IMG/VR virus record: IMGVR_UViG_3300046665_000400
Location: 1-39,710 of that record
DNA from: a virus
Length of the DNA: 39,710 nt
Strand: one strand, 5' to 3'
The notes under the pieces are model-generated. The model was given only the letters and a program-made list of their open reading frames with translations. It was not told the origin of the DNA and searched no databases. A program made the translations under genes and the position numbers. Numbering within the stretch: position 1 is the first letter of the stretch; each line of letters opens with the position of its first letter. Below are positions 23,068 to 37,710 of the stretch, piece after piece.

Positions 23068-23496
23068 ATGTATGCAACGGCAGACGCGATGATTGAAAAG
23101 TTCGGTGAGCGTGAACTAATTCAGCTCACTGATAATGAAGCTCCATATCAGGATGTCATTAATTACGACAAACTGAATAAGGCTTTACAGCACGCTAACT
23201 CTCAAATTGAGGGCTATCTTGTTAGTCGCTATAAGCTGCCGTTGCAAACAGTTCCACCATTTTTAGAATCCATTGCATGTGACATGGCTCGTTACCATGC
23301 CTGTATTGGAGCATTTTCTGAGAATGATCCTATCCGTACACGTTATGACGATGCGATAAAAACCCTAAAGGAAATCGCAAAAGGTAACGTCAGTCTTGGT
23401 AACGCTCCAGCTGGAGAGTCCGAGCCTGTTAAAACGTCCTCTAACAACGTGATGTTTCAGGTCGGACGCAATGATTTCGGAGGTCGTGGATGGTAG
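23068..23496 (+). CDS. DUF1320 protein (Mu gp36-like)
   Basis: A 142-residue protein: MYATADAMIEKFGERELIQL, then ALQHANSQIEGYLVSRYKLP and IACDMARYHACIGAF. DUF1320 members act as head-completion or connector adaptors between portal and tail. AGGAGG precedes the start. It overlaps the next gene by 7 nt. Confidence 0.9.
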   Translation: MYATADAMIEKFGERELIQLTDNEAPYQDVINYDKLNKALQHANSQIEGYLVSRYKLPLQTVPPFLESIACDMARYHACIGAFSENDPIRTRYDDAIKTLKEIAKGNVSLGNAPAGESEPVKTSSNNVMFQVGRNDFGGRGW

Positions 23497-24104
23497 AAAA
23501 TCTTGATCTCGGAATTGTTGTGCAAGGCATGAAAGATGTCATGGCAAAACAGCTTGAAACTAAGGTGTGGCCGTGGATTCGGGAAATCAAAACCTATGGT
23601 GGTGAATTCGATGATGAAACTTTAGCTTTTATCGATACATTCCCTGCAATCTGGGTGACTTTCCAAGGATCAGGTGCACCTCGCAAACTTAGTGAAAACA
23701 AAACTGTTTATCCCGTTAATTTAGTTGTTTTGGTTGGTGCTCGTTCAGTCCGTAACGAAGAAGCTCAACGCTTAGGCGGTGGTCGTGACATCGGAACTTT
23801 TAAGATGTTAAGCCTCGTTCAAAACTTGCTTATTGGCAATGATTTATCAAGTGTCAAAGTAAAAGGTTTAGCCCCATTAGGGTTGGGCCGTACCAGAACA
23901 ATTTTTAATACAACAACACGCAAACAGTCTGTGAGCGTGCTTTCTCAAGAATTTCATACCCAATACACCATCACGGCTTCAGATAGAGACCGTGAAGAAG
24001 CTGAGACTGTTGAAGATCTGCTGGGTATTCAAGTCGATTATTACTTTCAACCGAACGACGGCATTGTTGATGCATCGGATCGTGTTGAGTTTCAGGAAAA
24101 ATAA
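23490..24104 (+). CDS. DUF1834 protein (Mu gp37-like)
   Basis: A 204-residue protein: MVENLDLGIVVQGMKDVMAK, then FPAIWVTFQGSGAPRKLSEN and ITASDRDREEAETVEDLLGI. DUF1834 proteins are tail-terminator-like and lie just before the sheath gene in Mu-like phages, as here. Start chosen at the family N-terminus with GGAGG upstream inside the previous gene. Confidence 0.9.
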   Translation: MVENLDLGIVVQGMKDVMAKQLETKVWPWIREIKTYGGEFDDETLAFIDTFPAIWVTFQGSGAPRKLSENKTVYPVNLVVLVGARSVRNEEAQRLGGGRDIGTFKMLSLVQNLLIGNDLSSVKVKGLAPLGLGRTRTIFNTTTRKQSVSVLSQEFHTQYTITASDRDREEAETVEDLLGIQVDYYFQPNDGIVDASDRVEFQEK

Positions 24105-24107
24105 GCT

Positions 24108-24458
24108 ATGTCTATTTCTGCAAATATTAAAGTTCCAGACGTATACACCAGCGTCAATATCAATACTCAGCGTACAGGTTTGCCCCTTAATGATCAGCGA
24201 GTTTTGTTTGTGACGCTGGATGTTTTGTCAGAACAATTTACGCCTGTCGATATTTATGACAAGGCCGATGCTGATACCAAATTCGGTGCTAACTCACAAG
24301 CTGGGCGAATGATCACTGCTGCTGTTAAAACAAATCGTACTGTCAGTGTGCAAGCTGTAGCTCTTGCTGCTGAAAATGTTCAAACACAGTCCGCTATTCA
24401 GACCGAAAGTGGTAGTGCGCTTTTAACTGAAGGTGGCGCTTTGATTGAACCGGAGTAA
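24108..24458 (+). CDS. Tail sheath N-terminal fragment (split sheath, part 1)
   Basis: A 116-residue protein. Residues 1-90 look like the beginning of a Mu gpL-type sheath (KVPDVYTSVNINTQRTGLPL, NDQRVLFVT, FGANSQAGRMITAAVKTNRT, VSVQAVAL). The last 25 residues switch to a beta-hairpin-like repeat (TESGSALLTEGGALIEPE) more typical of fibre or collar proteins. A whole sheath is about 400-500 residues; the missing part resembles the separate gene at 27488-28297. The stop is TAA, followed in the same frame by GTT and then the ATG of the next gene. AGGA lies upstream of the start. Whether this fragment is functional cannot be told from sequence. Confidence 0.75.
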   Translation: MSISANIKVPDVYTSVNINTQRTGLPLNDQRVLFVTLDVLSEQFTPVDIYDKADADTKFGANSQAGRMITAAVKTNRTVSVQAVALAAENVQTQSAIQTESGSALLTEGGALIEPE

Positions 24459-24461
24459 GTT

Positions 24462-26693
24462 ATGGCTCAACAGACAATTGTAATTGAAGTTCCTGGTACT
24501 CCGATTAGTCAACTTGAACCAACTTCAAGTGTATCACCAGAAGATGTATTGCCAGTTGTACAGGGTAAAGAAACCAGAAAAGCACCTTTAGAACAAGTCG
24601 CTGATATGGTTAAAGCTGGCTTGGGTTCAGCGGCATCAAAGGATGCTAGTGAGTTTGCTACGCCCAGCGCAGTGACTTCTGTAGCACAAGAAAGTCAACA
24701 ACGTGACGATGCACAGAATGAAAGAATTGACGATGTTGAATTCAAGATCACACTTGCTCAGTCTGGTGTAGAGGCATCTTTTGATAGTTATGCAGCTATG
24801 CTTGCATACACTCCATCGAAGGCGAATGTCTCCGTCCGTGTAAATAATGATCCCGACAATACAAAAGTTGGGACATATACGTGGACTGGTAGTGAATATA
24901 AAAAAGGATTTGATCTTGCTCAGTATCTTTTAAACATTGTTAATGCACTAGCAACTGTTAAGCCTCAGCACTTAGCCAATGCCACAGATTTTAATTTAAT
25001 TGTTAATGCTGGCAATTATTTTATTTCATCTCAGCCTGATGCACAGACGATGTTGAATCTGCCAGCGGCTTATCAGCTTTCAGGTTCTTTAATCAATGTG
25101 CCGATGTCGGACACTGTGCAAAATGGCGTCTTACGTTATGCATATCAGATTTATAGAACTGGTCTAGGTACTGCAATTGAGCGTTATTGCATAAATTATG
25201 TATGGCGTGATTGGTCTGTTGTTGCTGATAGAAAAAGCATGTCAGATTTACAAGGACTTGCGCTAACTACATCAAGCCTTGAAGCACGTCATCACTACAA
25301 GCTAGTTCTTCAGTATCTTGGAAAGCATCTTGCTGAGTATCTTCCACTCGGTGGGACTCGTTTTCCACTCTATGTGGATAAGAATCTTGGAACTGTTCTT
25401 GAAGTAGATGTAACTACTGGGGAAATTATTGGTAATTTTTCATCAAACACTTCAACTCAAAAAGTTAAATCAATTGGTGAAAAACTGCCAGAACATTTAA
25501 TTATTGCGCCTTACAAAGTTGACCACTTCTTGTTCTACGGCCAATCGTTATCTGTTGGTGCTACAGCAACAACTATACTTTCAAATGCTCAACCTCTGCA
25601 CAACCTGACATTTGATACAGGCACTCGTATGCAAGGCCTTGTTGCGACTGCAACAAAATCTTTAATTGAAGAATATTTTGCTGGTCAAGCTGCTCCAGAT
25701 GGCGGAACTAACCGTGGTGAAACGGTTTGTTCTGGAGCTGCCAATATGTCAGCTTTGCTTGCCTATCAGGAAAACTCTATTGATCCAGAAGAATTTCCTA
25801 TTTTTGCAAGTACAGCAGGTAAAGGTGGTACAGCAATTGCAAACCTTAAAAAAGGTACTCAATGGTATAACGATGTCTTTTTGCTTCATCTAAATAAAGC
25901 AAAAGAGCTTATTGGCACGGAATATGGTGTGAGTTGTATTGGTTGGTTGCAAGGTGAACAAGATGCCGCTGCTACAACTTCTTACGCAAGTTATTTGAGC
26001 CAGTTCCTACAGCTTCGTCAGGATATGGAGGCTGATGTTCAATTAATATCAGGGAAAAATCAGCCTGTTCATTTGTTAACGTATCAGATGAGCTACCGAG
26101 CACTTGGGCCACGTGATGTCATCACTAGAGCACTCTATGATGCAACCAATCTTGATGAAAAAATTCATCTAGTCACTCCAACTTATCTTTTTCCACATAA
26201 CCCATCAGATCAAGTTCATTTGACCTCTATAGGCTACAAATGGATTTCGGCATATTTTGGACGTGCTCGGAAAGAGCTTCTTTGGGATAGGATTTTCCCA
26301 CGTTCGCTCAAAGTATTGTCAGCTACTTATTCTGGTAAAAAAATTACGGTCAAGTTCAAAGTGCCAACTAGTCCACTTGTTCTTGATATAGCTAATTTGG
26401 CAATGACAACTGATTACGGTTTCAGAGTTACAGATGGAGCGAACACACTAGCAATAGACACAATTAATGCGTATGAGGATACAGTAGTTATTAATCTACT
26501 GAATACTCCCTCATCGGATGTATATGTACGTTATGCCTATGATTATCTGGGTTCAGGTCTTACGATTTTGAATGGTGCATCAGGAAATTTACGTGATAGT
26601 ACAGATGAACCAGTTGTAATTGCTGGTGAAACCAAGCCGATGTTCTATGTGGCCCCACATTTTGAGCTAAAAGCTATCAAGGAGGCAATCTAA
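24462..26693 (+). CDS. Tail-fibre protein with SGNH esterase domain
   Basis: A 743-residue protein. The N-terminal 100 residues are a virion-anchoring type segment (PISQLEPTSSVSPEDVLPVV, then QGKETRKAPLEQVADMV) and a coiled part (QQRDDAQNERIDDVEFK). A middle region (about 110-340) with DSYAAMLAYTPSKANVSVRV and TYTWTGSEYKK fits a fibre shaft. The C-terminal esterase starts near 352: FYGQSLSVG with nucleophile Ser362, GWLQGEQD at 494-501, and DQVHLTSIGY with Asp583/His586. A beta-sandwich tail follows. It probably removes acetyl groups from capsule or surface sugars during adsorption. GGAG lies six bases before the ATG. It is inserted between the two sheath pieces. Confidence 0.85.
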   Translation: MAQQTIVIEVPGTPISQLEPTSSVSPEDVLPVVQGKETRKAPLEQVADMVKAGLGSAASKDASEFATPSAVTSVAQESQQRDDAQNERIDDVEFKITLAQSGVEASFDSYAAMLAYTPSKANVSVRVNNDPDNTKVGTYTWTGSEYKKGFDLAQYLLNIVNALATVKPQHLANATDFNLIVNAGNYFISSQPDAQTMLNLPAAYQLSGSLINVPMSDTVQNGVLRYAYQIYRTGLGTAIERYCINYVWRDWSVVADRKSMSDLQGLALTTSSLEARHHYKLVLQYLGKHLAEYLPLGGTRFPLYVDKNLGTVLEVDVTTGEIIGNFSSNTSTQKVKSIGEKLPEHLIIAPYKVDHFLFYGQSLSVGATATTILSNAQPLHNLTFDTGTRMQGLVATATKSLIEEYFAGQAAPDGGTNRGETVCSGAANMSALLAYQENSIDPEEFPIFASTAGKGGTAIANLKKGTQWYNDVFLLHLNKAKELIGTEYGVSCIGWLQGEQDAAATTSYASYLSQFLQLRQDMEADVQLISGKNQPVHLLTYQMSYRALGPRDVITRALYDATNLDEKIHLVTPTYLFPHNPSDQVHLTSIGYKWISAYFGRARKELLWDRIFPRSLKVLSATYSGKKITVKFKVPTSPLVLDIANLAMTTDYGFRVTDGANTLAIDTINAYEDTVVINLLNTPSSDVYVRYAYDYLGSGLTILNGASGNLRDSTDEPVVIAGETKPMFYVAPHFELKAIKEAI

Positions 26694-27472
26694 TGTTAAT
26701 CCATGTTCTTCCTGTAGCAGTCGCAAATACTATGCGTCAGCTTAATGCAATAGACGTAGAACGATATGACTCAGTAGCAAATAGCTTGTTTGCTCGATGG
26801 GATTTTCGTGCAAGCACTGTACCATCTACTGGAAATTTCACAGTTCTAAATGCTCAAAACAAGCCATATAAAAAACTAATTCCTGTTGATAGTAATTATT
26901 TAACTTATCAACCTGATGGCTTGCTTGTGCAGGGTTTTGCATCTCGTGGTGTGCGAAGCCCATTATTTAATCGGGATTTACCACTTGGTTATACGTTGTG
27001 CTGCTTAGCTACTATTGTGGGGGTGCGCGACAATAAGATTTTGATGGTCATGGGTGATCAATCAGACTCAGAGCAGTCAACAAGTCGTACTGGTGCCTCA
27101 ATTTTCATTTCTGGAGCAACTGACAATAATGTCTTTGTCGGGATTGGAGGAGCATCATCTAGTGCAACATTCTTCCCAGTTCAATTAAGCGTACCCATAT
27201 TCTTTTGTTTGACCGTTGAGAATCTGCCAAATGCAGTCAATGTGCGTGGTTATGTTAAAGCTACAGGTTTAGATCACCAAATTCCAATGTCTGCACCTAG
27301 GCCGCTTAATGATAACCCGCGCTCTCAGATCGGCCTTGGTAGCGTTGACTACTTATCAACCAGCACATCTCAAAATCTGAAATATTCAGAATTTTCAATT
27401 TTCACGAAACCCTTAACTGCTGAAGAAGTTGAAGCCGAATATCAAGCAGTCAAAGTACGTCACTCTTTATAA
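26693..27472 (+). CDS. Putative lectin-like (LamG-type) tail protein
   Basis: A 259-residue, beta-rich protein: ANSLFARWDFRASTVPSTGN, then a run of beta strands and a closing YSEFSIFTKPLTAEEVEAEY, which resembles the end of LamG/concanavalin-like domains (ALSAEEIxxxY). I infer a carbohydrate-binding role next to the esterase. AAGGAGG lies seven bases before the ATG, and it overlaps the esterase gene by one base. Together the two genes form a receptor-binding cassette inside the sheath locus. Weaker alternative: an assembly partner for the esterase fibre. Confidence 0.6.
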   Translation: MLIHVLPVAVANTMRQLNAIDVERYDSVANSLFARWDFRASTVPSTGNFTVLNAQNKPYKKLIPVDSNYLTYQPDGLLVQGFASRGVRSPLFNRDLPLGYTLCCLATIVGVRDNKILMVMGDQSDSEQSTSRTGASIFISGATDNNVFVGIGGASSSATFFPVQLSVPIFFCLTVENLPNAVNVRGYVKATGLDHQIPMSAPRPLNDNPRSQIGLGSVDYLSTSTSQNLKYSEFSIFTKPLTAEEVEAEYQAVKVRHSL

Positions 27473-27487
27473 TAGGTAATATTCACT

Positions 27488-28297
27488 ATGACTCTTCAAA
27501 ATACACTCGATACCATCGCCCCTCTAGGTCACACCATCATTGCCGTATCAGCACCTCCAGCAGCTGGAACTGATACAACTGCATGGATTGATCACTTAAC
27601 ATCGGTAAGTGATGCGATCAACCAAAAGCCAGCAATTTTGGTGGTTCCATTTACTGATATCGTTGCAGCTGAAACCTTTGCAGACCAAGCTCCAGTAAAA
27701 ACTTGTTACCGTGTGGTGGTGGTTTGCTATCACGGTGCAACAGGTCAAGAACCTGAAATTGCAGCAGCAATGGCCGCAGCTTTGGCAGACTCAAACGATC
27801 CAGCATTACCATTCAATGGTGTAAACCTTGAAGGTGTAACGCCTGTTTCAGATGAGTACAAACTGAAGTTTGAGCGTATCAATGCTGCTTTAAACAAAGG
27901 CGTGTGTATGATCGAAACTGGGGCTGACGGCAAACCTGAAATTGTTCGCGCAATTTCTACATTCCGTATTAATCCAGACTCAGGCGATGCAGATGACATC
28001 ATGCTTGATATTAATGGCGCTTTGGTTATCGATTACACCCGTAAAGTGATTCGTACAGCCTTGCTTAAAGAGCGTCGTCGAAAAAACACAGCAGCTGCGC
28101 GACGTAATGTACGCTCGGTTATGTTGGCTGAACTTCTTAAACTTGATCGTGCTGAAATCCTTGAAAACGTTGAGGATACAAAGGATCAGTTAACTGTCAT
28201 TCAGAACGAAAATAACAAAACTTGGGCTATCGGAAAAATCCCTGCACATTGGGTGCGAGGTATGCACGTAGTTGATGCCCAGTTAGACGTCTACTAA
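27488..28297 (+). CDS. Tail sheath C-terminal part (split sheath, part 2)
   Basis: A 269-residue protein that reads like the second half of a contractile tail sheath: DTIAPLGHTIIAVSAPPAAG, ILVVPFTDIVAAETFADQ, PFNGVNLEGVTPVSDEYKLK, RINAALNKGVCMIETGADGK and TFRINPDSGDADDIMLDING. The end (KIPAHWVRGMHVVDAQLDVY) is the typical sheath C-terminus. An in-frame TAG lies 15 bases before the ATG, so it cannot be part of a longer ORF. Together with the 116-aa fragment it gives 385 residues, about the size of a small sheath. It is followed by an intrinsic terminator. Ribosome binding site is weak (AGG at 11 bases). Confidence 0.85.
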   Translation: MTLQNTLDTIAPLGHTIIAVSAPPAAGTDTTAWIDHLTSVSDAINQKPAILVVPFTDIVAAETFADQAPVKTCYRVVVVCYHGATGQEPEIAAAMAAALADSNDPALPFNGVNLEGVTPVSDEYKLKFERINAALNKGVCMIETGADGKPEIVRAISTFRINPDSGDADDIMLDINGALVIDYTRKVIRTALLKERRRKNTAAARRNVRSVMLAELLKLDRAEILENVEDTKDQLTVIQNENNKTWAIGKIPAHWVRGMHVVDAQLDVY

Positions 28298-28309
28298 ACC
28301 AAACACTTT

Positions 28310-28337
28310 AAAAAAGGTCGCATTTGCGGCCTTTTTT
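28310..28337 (+). terminator. Intrinsic terminator after sheath part 2
   Basis: AAAAAAGGTCGC-ATTT-GCGGCCTTTTTT forms a 12-bp stem with one G-T pair and ends in a T-run. It is directly followed by hairpin copy 4. Confidence 0.85.
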
Positions 28338-28341
28338 ATTG

Positions 28342-28359
28342 GGCGGAAGTATTTCCGCC
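28342..28359 (+). repeat. GCGGAAG hairpin repeat, copy 4
   Basis: GGCGGAA-GTAT-TTCCGCC followed by TGATC, four bases after the intrinsic terminator and 58 bases before the tail tube gene. Confidence 0.8.
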
Positions 28360-28416
28360 TGATCTTATTTAAATAGTTATTTGACAATGAGTCATCGTTA
28401 AAAAGAGAGACACACA

Positions 28417-28794
28417 ATGTCTGAAGATGCAGTTGGCTCAATTGTGATGAGCTTTAATGGGTTGGATTACGATGTTTCGCGGCTTGGTACGAGTATTACG
28501 ACTGGGAACCGCCCAATCGCTACGATGAACCGTCAACAGCGTGTGAAATATAAATCGAAAGGTATTACGACTTATGAACTCACTGCTACTGTAGTCATTC
28601 CAGATGGAAAGGACACCGTGCAATGGCTTAAAGTGGATGATGCCCGAATTTCAATCGAATCCCCTTCAGGGAATTACCGTGAAACTTTCATTGACTGTAA
28701 TGTCACTTCTGTTGGTGCTACTTACGACTTAAATGGCGAAACAGTCCGTGAGCTTCAGTTGTTCTGCTTAGACTATATTGACGAAACATTGTAG
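28417..28794 (+). CDS. Tail tube protein (Mu gpM-like)
   Basis: A 125-residue protein: SIVMSFNGLDYDVSRLGTSI, then NRQQRVKYKSKGITTYELTA and a C-terminal ATYDLNGETVRELQLFCLDY. This is the pattern of Mu-type tail tube proteins, which polymerise inside the sheath. It lies downstream of the sheath as usual, but separated from it by a terminator and a repeat hairpin. Confidence 0.9.
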   Translation: MSEDAVGSIVMSFNGLDYDVSRLGTSITTGNRPIATMNRQQRVKYKSKGITTYELTATVVIPDGKDTVQWLKVDDARISIESPSGNYRETFIDCNVTSVGATYDLNGETVRELQLFCLDYIDETL

Positions 28795-35642: not shown

Positions 35643-36175
35643 CATTTGATCAAACTGTTGAGCTATATGCTTCAGTACTTCGGCAATTATTACCTGTTGG
35701 CGGTTATGACAATGCACAAGACACTGTTATCGCAATAGATATCTATACTCATGCAAAAGTACTGGCTCAAGCAGATTTGGACGCAAAACGATTGCTTTCA
35801 TTTATAGAAGGTATTCCTGTTGAGCTACTGGATGAATACGAGCAGTCGTTAGGTCTACCACTCAAATGCACAGTAAATGGCTCAAAAACTATTGAAGAAA
35901 GATTACAGATCATTCAATGGGTTCAAAAAACTAAAAATGTCCTTAATCGGACTTATCTGGAAGAACTTTTAGCACTTTTTGGTGTGGAGTTGATTGATTT
36001 AGTACGGTACACGCCAATGCAATGCACTACATCATGTACGTCTCCAGTCAACACCGAAAGTCTACGTTTTAAAGTCAAACTCATCTTAAAAGCGCCAGTT
36101 AAAGCTGACATGGGCTGCATTATTGAAAACTATTTACCAGCTTATTTGCGGTATGACATCGAGGAAAAAGTATGA
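35639..36175 (+). CDS. DUF2313 tail protein (Mu gp48-like)
   Basis: A 178-residue protein of the Mu gp48/YmfQ family: VELYASVLRQLLPVGGYDNA, then LLDEYEQSLGLPLKCTVNGS and YLEELLALFGVELIDLV. It links the baseplate to tail fibres. The ATGA overlap with the fibre gene indicates coupling. Confidence 0.9.
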   Translation: MTFDQTVELYASVLRQLLPVGGYDNAQDTVIAIDIYTHAKVLAQADLDAKRLLSFIEGIPVELLDEYEQSLGLPLKCTVNGSKTIEERLQIIQWVQKTKNVLNRTYLEELLALFGVELIDLVRYTPMQCTTSCTSPVNTESLRFKVKLILKAPVKADMGCIIENYLPAYLRYDIEEKV

Positions 36176-37710
36176 AACGAATTGATAGCGTAAACGCACG
36201 TCCAGACGTAAATGGAGCTGGTAAAGCTGGCTTTCATGACAATTCAGATTTAAGTGGACAAGATGCAACTTATCTCACGCCAGATTTTCTCAATACCACA
36301 CAAGAAGAATTGGCAAATCTACTTGAGCTTAGAGGTATTACTTTAGATCCAGAGAATCGTCGTCAACTGTTTGATGCTTTAGCAGGTAAAGATGATTTAG
36401 ATGCTGTGATGGATATCATTCAATCTATAATTGATAACGAACGTAATGCGCGTATTAAAGCAGATCAAGATCACTTAGATACGTTAAATCCACACCCCCA
36501 ATATGTAATGAGAAAGGATTTTCGACTTCTATATAGGACTCTAACACCTGAGACCACTGTAAACCCGAAGATTTATACGGATGATCCGCAGAATTGGCAG
36601 ATTAAACATACAGTAGAAAATATTAGTGCTCATATCATGCCGAATGGTGTTGTTAAACAGACTATTAAAGTTCGCACTGTCTACGGTGACTATAACGCTC
36701 AAGTCTATTTACCTATAGGCTTATCTAATATTTTAAACGTCTCCGCACTCTATCAAGGTCAAAGAGAAAATAATAATGCTGAAGACGATTCAGCCATTCG
36801 TTTATTAGATATCTATAATGAGGTAGTTCCACTGGAAGATGGCTTACGGGAATGCAGAACGGTCATCAATTTCCGTTTTGACTATGTCAGTGCTAACACC
36901 CCTGGTCAAAGAGAACGTTTTGCGTATTTAGAAATTACAGGTTTTGGGGCTTCAAATACTGATCTTGAGAACTTAAATAACTACCCATATCCGTATTACA
37001 GCAATCAGAATGATTTAGATGGTCAAGTTGTTTATATTGATCAAAATCTTTCTAGTGTAAGCCTACTGGAGCTATTCACTCAGACTTATGGAGCACCAAC
37101 AGCAGCAACGAGAGCTATTTTTGTTATTGCTTCAGGTGTGACGTTGGTTGCCGTTACTTCAGGCAATTGGTTAGCTGGTTCAAGCCGTCAAATCATTAAC
37201 TATGGTCATATATATGGTACTGGCGGTTCTGGCGGCTATTATGATGACGATACAGCTATGGTCGGTGATGGCGGTACAGCAATCATTGCTCAGAATGCTA
37301 GTAGCTTTATTGATGTACGCAATTATGGCCTAATTGCAGGCGGTGGTGGCGGTGGCGCAGCTGGTACATCAGAATATACAATTGGTGCTCAACAGTATTA
37401 TGCTGTTGGCGCAGGCGGTGGTGGTGTTCCACTCGGCACTGGTGGCAGTAATATCAATCAAACCGCACCTGAAGGCAAAACACTTGAGAACATTGCTGGT
37501 ACGAATGCAACGCTATCTGTTGTGGGTAGTGGTGCAGATGGAACAGGCTTAGCAGCTGGCGATGGTGGAAACGTTGGTGAGAATGGTAAAGCTAGTGAAT
37601 CAACTCTTGGAAATGGTGTTGCTGGTTTAGCTGGGTTTATTTACCAAGGTAATGTTACGATCACAAATATTGGAGGTGGACAGGTGAAAGGTAGAACACC
37701 TTCTAATTGA
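36172..37710 (+). CDS. Tail fibre with glycine-rich receptor-binding end
   Basis: A 512-residue fibre. The N-terminus (MKRIDSVNARPDVNGAGKAG, then FLNTTQEELANLLELRGITL) attaches to the baseplate. NPHPQYVMRKDF near 106-117 is the usual fibre linker motif. The region 120-370 is beta-rich. From about residue 345 the protein is Gly-rich with repeated GGG stretches (GTGGSGGYY, AGGGGGGAAG, AGGGGVPLGTGGS), similar in style to polyglycine adhesin tips of some phages. It is the last gene before the right end; there is no separate fibre-assembly chaperone after it, and no invertible segment or invertase is seen. Confidence 0.88.
   Translation: MKRIDSVNARPDVNGAGKAGFHDNSDLSGQDATYLTPDFLNTTQEELANLLELRGITLDPENRRQLFDALAGKDDLDAVMDIIQSIIDNERNARIKADQDHLDTLNPHPQYVMRKDFRLLYRTLTPETTVNPKIYTDDPQNWQIKHTVENISAHIMPNGVVKQTIKVRTVYGDYNAQVYLPIGLSNILNVSALYQGQRENNNAEDDSAIRLLDIYNEVVPLEDGLRECRTVINFRFDYVSANTPGQRERFAYLEITGFGASNTDLENLNNYPYPYYSNQNDLDGQVVYIDQNLSSVSLLELFTQTYGAPTAATRAIFVIASGVTLVAVTSGNWLAGSSRQIINYGHIYGTGGSGGYYDDDTAMVGDGGTAIIAQNASSFIDVRNYGLIAGGGGGGAAGTSEYTIGAQQYYAVGAGGGGVPLGTGGSNINQTAPEGKTLENIAGTNATLSVVGSGADGTGLAAGDGGNVGENGKASESTLGNGVAGLAGFIYQGNVTITNIGGGQVKGRTPSN

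Follow-up and report, generated by a model that had tools for sequence, protein, structure and literature searches.

A tail sheath gene split at a conserved point around an exchangeable fibre cassette in Mu-like phages of Acinetobacter and relatives

Results

Organization of the sheath locus

The window, by which we mean the whole stretch of DNA analysed here (39,710 nucleotides of the viral record IMGVR_UViG_3300046665_000400), carries a Mu-like late operon in which four open reading frames of 116, 743, 259 and 269 aa lie between the gp37 gene (23490-24104) and the tail tube gene (Table 1). Mu-type phages such as SuMu have a single sheath gene between gp37 and the tail tube. The Mu-type gene order of gp36, gp37, sheath and tube is kept, with a cassette sitting inside the sheath position. 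All four frames were found where a first-pass annotation, made without database searches, had placed them, and its claim that an in-frame TAG rules out one continuous frame also held: since this codon closes the C-half frame, which is open only from 27476, no reading frame can run from the first part of the sheath to the second.

Two details of the flanking genes may be recorded here. The product of 23490-24104 is named 'portal protein' in PHROG 490 but matches Pfam Phage_Mu_Gp37 (E 3.6e-32), and the PHROG name is probably mistaken. Downstream, about 120 bases between the sheath C half and the tail tube gene (28298-28416) contain no gene and two hairpins, one of them listed as terminator-like (28338-28363); a gap of about 120-130 bases is kept at this place in most relatives.

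Table 1. Positions of the sheath parts, the cassette and related features in the window
Feature	Position	Strand	Basis
Sheath N half, 116 aa: N-terminal arm and first part of sheath core	24108..24458	+	PHROG 5292, PHROG 165, Mu gpL alignment, dN/dS
C-terminal tail of N half, residues 90-116, ...TESGSALLTEGGALIEPE; candidate fibre-docking peptide (inferred)	24375..24455	+	Presence in class D only, dN/dS 0.29
Cassette fibre F, 743 aa, SASA/SGNH esterase domain	24462..26693	+	PF03629, PHROG 4201 tail fiber
Conserved anchor module of F, ~150 aa	24462..24917	+	Directly after N piece in 44/44 class D loci
Second cassette gene, 259 aa, function not established	26693..27472	+	PHROG 4390
In-frame TAG closing the C-half frame upstream	27473..27475	+	Sequence
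Sheath C half, 269 aa	27488..28297	+	PHROG 165 213-491; Mu sheath 310-490; ATG in 71/71; dN/dS 0.08
Tail tube protein, next operon gene	28417..28794	+	PHROG 185
Second fibre, Mu position at end of tail operon	36172..37710	+	PHROG tail fibre matches, N-terminal and C-terminal

Sheath identity of the two halves

The 116-aa protein matches PHROG 5292 'tail sheath' (8e-48) and also, at positions 7-108, PHROG 165, a 493-aa sheath whose positions 213-491 are matched by the 269-aa protein (2e-51). The latter has a further match to Pfam Phage_sheath_1/1C, but below the curated cut-off. When aligned with the solved Mu sheath (9khy), the N family covers gpL residues 8-94 and the C part residues 310-490. 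The two genes thus encode the N-terminal and C-terminal parts of one Mu-type sheath, as the first-pass annotation had proposed for both. A regular Mu-type sheath is a single polypeptide, which the window, with its in-frame TAG and four separate frames, does not encode; its sheath is a split variant of the Mu type rather than a regular member. The N family is already catalogued as PHROG 5292. No type VI secretion system (T6SS) family was present among the Pfam matches of the window proteins at E up to 1, and there was no TssB match for the N half.

The extra domain of the SuMu sheath starts where the N pieces end, and the split falls at the site where Mu-type sheaths carry this extra outer domain. 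An AlphaFold model of the intact sheath of a relative (locus L083), of moderate confidence (pLDDT 72), has the Mu sheath as its best structural match. Its first 28 residues are not reliably modelled, and its N part comprises strands at 31-36 and 79-84 and helices at 51-58 and 63-73.

Conservation of the split among relatives

Searches of viral and genome collections yielded 80 distinct loci with both sheath parts, 71 of which are split at the same point; because so many break at one place, the split is real and conserved and cannot be put down to chance or decay. The other nine loci (class A) encode one intact sheath of 355-365 aa, equal to N plus C. The two parts are fused exactly at the split point in these intact relatives: in the 355-aa sheath of L083, residue 88 of the N part directly precedes residue 3 of the C part. 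In no class A locus was the C part alone seen as an intact sheath; it was always N plus C in one chain.

In a scan of 176 Acinetobacter genomes the sheath occurred in 20, as 6 intact and 17 split loci, and both halves were present in 17/17 of the latter. No match was obtained in 368 other genomes sampled from the class, while a family-wide scan gave, outside the genus set, three more split loci and one intact Mu-type sheath of 488 aa. The loci with a single half were all truncated by contig or locus ends, and every untruncated split locus has both halves. The split sheath is common to a group of Mu-like phages of Acinetobacter and relatives.

The first-pass reading of a split sheath would have failed had the 116-aa protein lacked a sheath N-terminal fold, or had the complete sheath of relatives equalled the 269-aa protein alone. 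Both possibilities were tested and neither was borne out, the intact relatives being N plus C. The same split was found in other Acinetobacter Mu-like prophages, where that annotation had proposed to look for it, and is shared by dozens of phages; two prophages of this type (L164 and L166) reside in the genome of Acinetobacter pittii ATCC 19004. Its location at the extra-domain site, the sister forms with an apparent frameshift and the fibre at the Mu position go beyond what the annotation had noticed.

Four states of the slot

The slot between the two parts was found in four states. Class A, with the intact sheath, has a linker of 0 to about 16 residues. In class B the N half is fused in frame to an extra domain and followed by a separate C half; examples are L092 (217 aa) and, outside the genus set, L239 and L241 (open frames of 271 and 257 aa). 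In class C (26 loci: L034, L036, L044, L094, L120, L128, L161 and 19 others) the N half measures 86-111 aa and the extra domain is reached by an apparent -1 frameshift. Class D (44 loci), to which the window belongs, has an N half ending in a 'TESG...LIEP' tail, followed by a fibre gene with an anchor of about 150 aa.

All class C loci carry the heptamer G_GGA_AAG in frame, 2-14 codons before the N-half stop, and the -1 frame then stays open for 64-630 residues; some of these extensions are BspA-type LRR or DUF285 domains. The heptamer occurs exactly once per N piece in 26/26 class C loci, in 0/53 N parts of classes A and D (the window-type N piece included) and at 0/20,784 codon positions in the C halves. 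Outside the genus set, L240 has it too, immediately ahead of the stop. This heptamer is reported to be highly shift-prone in E. coli (PMC5009743). Its placement is shown by the sequences; its actual use is inferred, and the -1 frameshift on the class C sheath gene is an apparent one. In 19 of the 26 loci a start codon lies two codons upstream in the -1 frame and could serve as an internal start instead, while seven loci have no start codon upstream in that frame. No consistent or shared hairpin follows the heptamer, as judged against shuffles (mean z -0.6).

Three loci outside the genus set merit a separate word. The N piece of L239 (G619:C1:1016500-1020500, reverse strand) keeps GGGAAAG despite its in-frame extra domain, and a -1 slip there would reach a stop two codons later and give a short N half; the frames may have been swapped with both products still possible, although this rests on one case. 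In L241 (G674:C15) an (SDG)n repeat, likely a flexible spacer, joins the in-frame extra domain to the N half. L240 (G646:C35) has, besides its -1 extension, a frame between the halves that resembles a glycosyltransferase by eye only.

The window-type cassette

The TESG...LIEP tail is present in class D N pieces and absent from classes A, B and C. The gene that follows the N piece begins with the same module of about 150 aa in 44/44 class D loci (weakly, at 30-36% identity, in four of them), so that N tail and F anchor co-occur throughout the class. With the anchor alone as query, 38 full-length matches were obtained, each of them beside an N piece, and the anchor was absent from the collection of isolated phages searched.

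The first-pass annotation had described the genes between the halves as an SGNH-esterase fibre gene and a lectin-like gene. The former description held: F has a SASA/SGNH esterase domain (PF03629, E 1.3e-6, above the cut-off) and matches the tail fiber family PHROG 4201. The latter is unsupported, as the 259-aa protein has no Pfam match, a poor structural model (pLDDT 31) and a match only to PHROG 4390, of unknown function. This gene was matched in two other loci and is optional, many class D loci being without it.

Beyond its anchor, F was matched in only three other loci, and esterases of the SASA and GDSL types, as well as a BNR_4 domain, are found among class D fibre ends. With the window, L003 has 99% of its C half and 95% of its N half in common, yet the end of its fibre is unrelated; in L026 the fibre end is 92% shared, but its C half is only 74% alike. 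Fibre cassettes have been exchanged between loci, the anchor being conserved and the receptor-binding end swapped. F is a separate protein, because it starts independently and its frame relative to that of N takes all three values across class D loci; this variation excludes read-through of the N stop, or a frameshift, from N into F. The annotation's point that the fibre position departs from that of Mu held in part: the cassette does lie in the sheath locus, but the phage retains a second fibre at the Mu position as well.

Selection, translation signals and evolutionary history

In class D, summed dN/dS was lowest in the C half (0.08), followed by the N core (0.15) and the N tail (0.29), showing both sheath halves to be under purifying selection; the N-core value in intact class A (0.19) is similar to that in split class D. 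Divergence of N and C is correlated in class D (r = 0.80). The ATG of the C half is conserved in 71/71 split loci, with an SD-like motif before it in 63 of the 71.

In a tree of the C half, class A forms one clade and class D requires at least three changes among class C forms; the N tree, which rests on few columns, implies just as many class changes. When a near outgroup is included in the tree, class A falls among the split forms. AU tests reject neither a history in which class A is original nor one in which it is re-fused (p 0.54 and 0.28), and the intact class A sheath may be a product of re-fusion, which these tests do not settle.

Discussion

A proposed two-chain sheath with an outward N-chain end

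The first-pass annotation had left three options: a sheath working as two polypeptides, a C-terminal part that suffices alone, and an N-terminal piece that now serves the fibre. The first is best supported. Each sheath subunit would be built from two chains: N would contribute the N-terminal arm together with some of the core beta sheet, and C the remainder. With no peptide bond linking them, the two would associate in the manner of TssB and TssC in the T6SS. The split, its position, its conservation and the selection on both halves are shown by sequence; the pairing is inferred. We consider a protomer that is an N:C heterodimer quite likely, with good support from sequence and no protein or virion data. 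A chain break of this kind is compatible with a working sheath because the core of the T6SS sheath is itself made of TssB plus TssC.

Since the break sits at the site of the extra outer domain, the C-terminus of the N chain would be expected to point outward from the tail, where this free end may display adsorption modules. Extra sheath domains have been suggested to help adhesion (Evseev et al. 2022, PMC9230969). In phages of the window type, the conserved short tail most likely docks the anchor of the adjoining fibre; the sheath would then bear fibres whose ends can be exchanged (an SGNH esterase in the window), over and above the Mu-position fibre. Sister phages would extend this N-chain end directly with an extra domain, fused in frame or added by a -1 frameshift in some of the chains. 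The outward end and the docking are both inferred without protein data. Taken as a whole, this model is one we lean towards by a modest margin, docking of the fibre being its weakest step. The option that the N piece serves the fibre is probably partly true by way of the conserved tail, besides a role in the sheath.

A bolder reading is that the two-chain sheath is convergent with TssB/TssC and that its freed outer end is a plug-in socket taking in-frame domains, -1 frameshift domains or whole exchangeable fibres; we find the case for it no stronger than the case against. If it is true, receptors are bound all along the sheath, and the binding modules can be replaced while contraction is left unaffected.

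Alternative explanations

The closest rival accepts a two-chain sheath but views the slot as merely a tolerated insertion or recombination site, with a fibre that binds the baseplate or neck and has no link to the sheath. This remains possible: F is a separate protein with its own start, in all three frames relative to N, its cassettes are freely exchanged, and myophage fibres as a rule attach to the baseplate. Against it stand the joint presence of F anchor and N tail in 44/44 loci with the anchor found nowhere else, the covalent attachment of extra domains to the same N-chain end in classes B and C (by inferred frameshift use in the latter), and the separate Mu-position fibre that already serves the usual place. 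That the C half alone makes the sheath, leaving the N fragment only a fibre adaptor, agrees with the added conserved tail of the N half and its place beside the fibre, but is unlikely. The N half is kept in classes B and C, which lack that fibre, and in 17/17 split loci of the genus scan; intact relatives need N and C in one chain; selection on the N core is alike in split class D and intact class A; and the N arm and strands belong to the sheath core in known structures (PMC5807055, PMC9230969). Together these contradict the option of a self-sufficient C-terminal part.

Broken genes with foreign genes inside them are common in prophages, and the locus could be read as a sheath gene recently interrupted by an insertion in a decaying prophage. 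This explanation is refuted by conservation and all but excluded: the break is common to 71 loci, dN/dS is well under 1 in both halves, the start codon of the C half is conserved, and the tree has depth with several class changes. RNA splicing, or translational bypassing of the cassette, might instead yield a mature product in which the halves form one chain, and the existence of intact relatives implies that a joined chain would be functional. We think this very improbable, however, as the inserts differ entirely between relatives, the C half has its own conserved ATG, and no intron family is found in the region, where an Rfam search gave nothing above threshold (one sub-threshold sRNA match lies downstream).

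Implications

The two-chain model with an outward N end remains our preferred reading, and it suggests that adhesins may be displayed laterally on the tails of these phages. For Acinetobacter phages, the locus is a candidate case of adsorption at the side of the tail, and it adds a new site at which receptor-binding modules are exchanged. The natural series from intact to split sheaths, broken just where the outer domain is otherwise carried, illustrates a route to a two-chain sheath and makes the pairing of two core halves directly testable. Automatic annotation may list the halves in Acinetobacter phages as separate short sheath genes.

Comparison with known systems

Phage sheaths surveyed structurally are single chains (PMC9230969), and to our knowledge there is no two-chain sheath other than that of the T6SS. 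No split or frameshifted phage sheath was described in the open-access literature searched; subscription papers and preprints were not covered, and this is weak evidence of novelty. The nearest relatives are the Mu-type gpL sheaths of Mu (PDB 9khy/9ki1), SuMu and Mannheimia 3927AP2, which have homologous N and C cores and the same operon position between gp37 and the tail tube, but form one chain with an extra domain between the parts and no genes inside. More generally, an N-terminal and a C-terminal part make up the sheath core, and extra domains are placed away from the tube (Evseev et al. 2022, PMC9230969). The multi-domain phage sheaths of types 2 and 3 likewise carry outer domains between N and C cores; unlike the window sheath they are single-chain, with no split gene or fibre gene in the slot in the relevant sections of that survey.

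Frameshift-added surface domains are known on coat and tail tube proteins of phages T3, A2 and SPP1 (gp17.1) (PMC5009743, PMC8718954). As would be the case in class C, where frameshift use is inferred, a -1 site near the 3' end adds a domain to a fraction of a structural protein. The shifted protein in those phages is a coat or tail tube protein, whereas in class C it would be half of a sheath, and the window has a separate fibre instead.

The T6SS sheath (VipA/VipB, or TssB/TssC) offers the closest parallel for two chains. TssB gives the N arm and two core-sheet strands and TssC the rest, in a 1:1 two-chain protomer (PMC5807055), and the small N chain of the phage may be viewed in the same way, its pairing being inferred. 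T6SS sheath genes as described there have no receptor-binding cassette between them, unlike those of the window. Separate N and C genes that always occur together, as in a TssB/TssC-type system, are what the 17/17 split loci of the 176 genomes contain. The two breaks possibly fall at the same position of the fold, which we read from the published description without structural superposition. By analogy, and with 1:1 co-assembly inferred, the phage N/C pair would resemble TssB/TssC in the way it works without being a member of that family.
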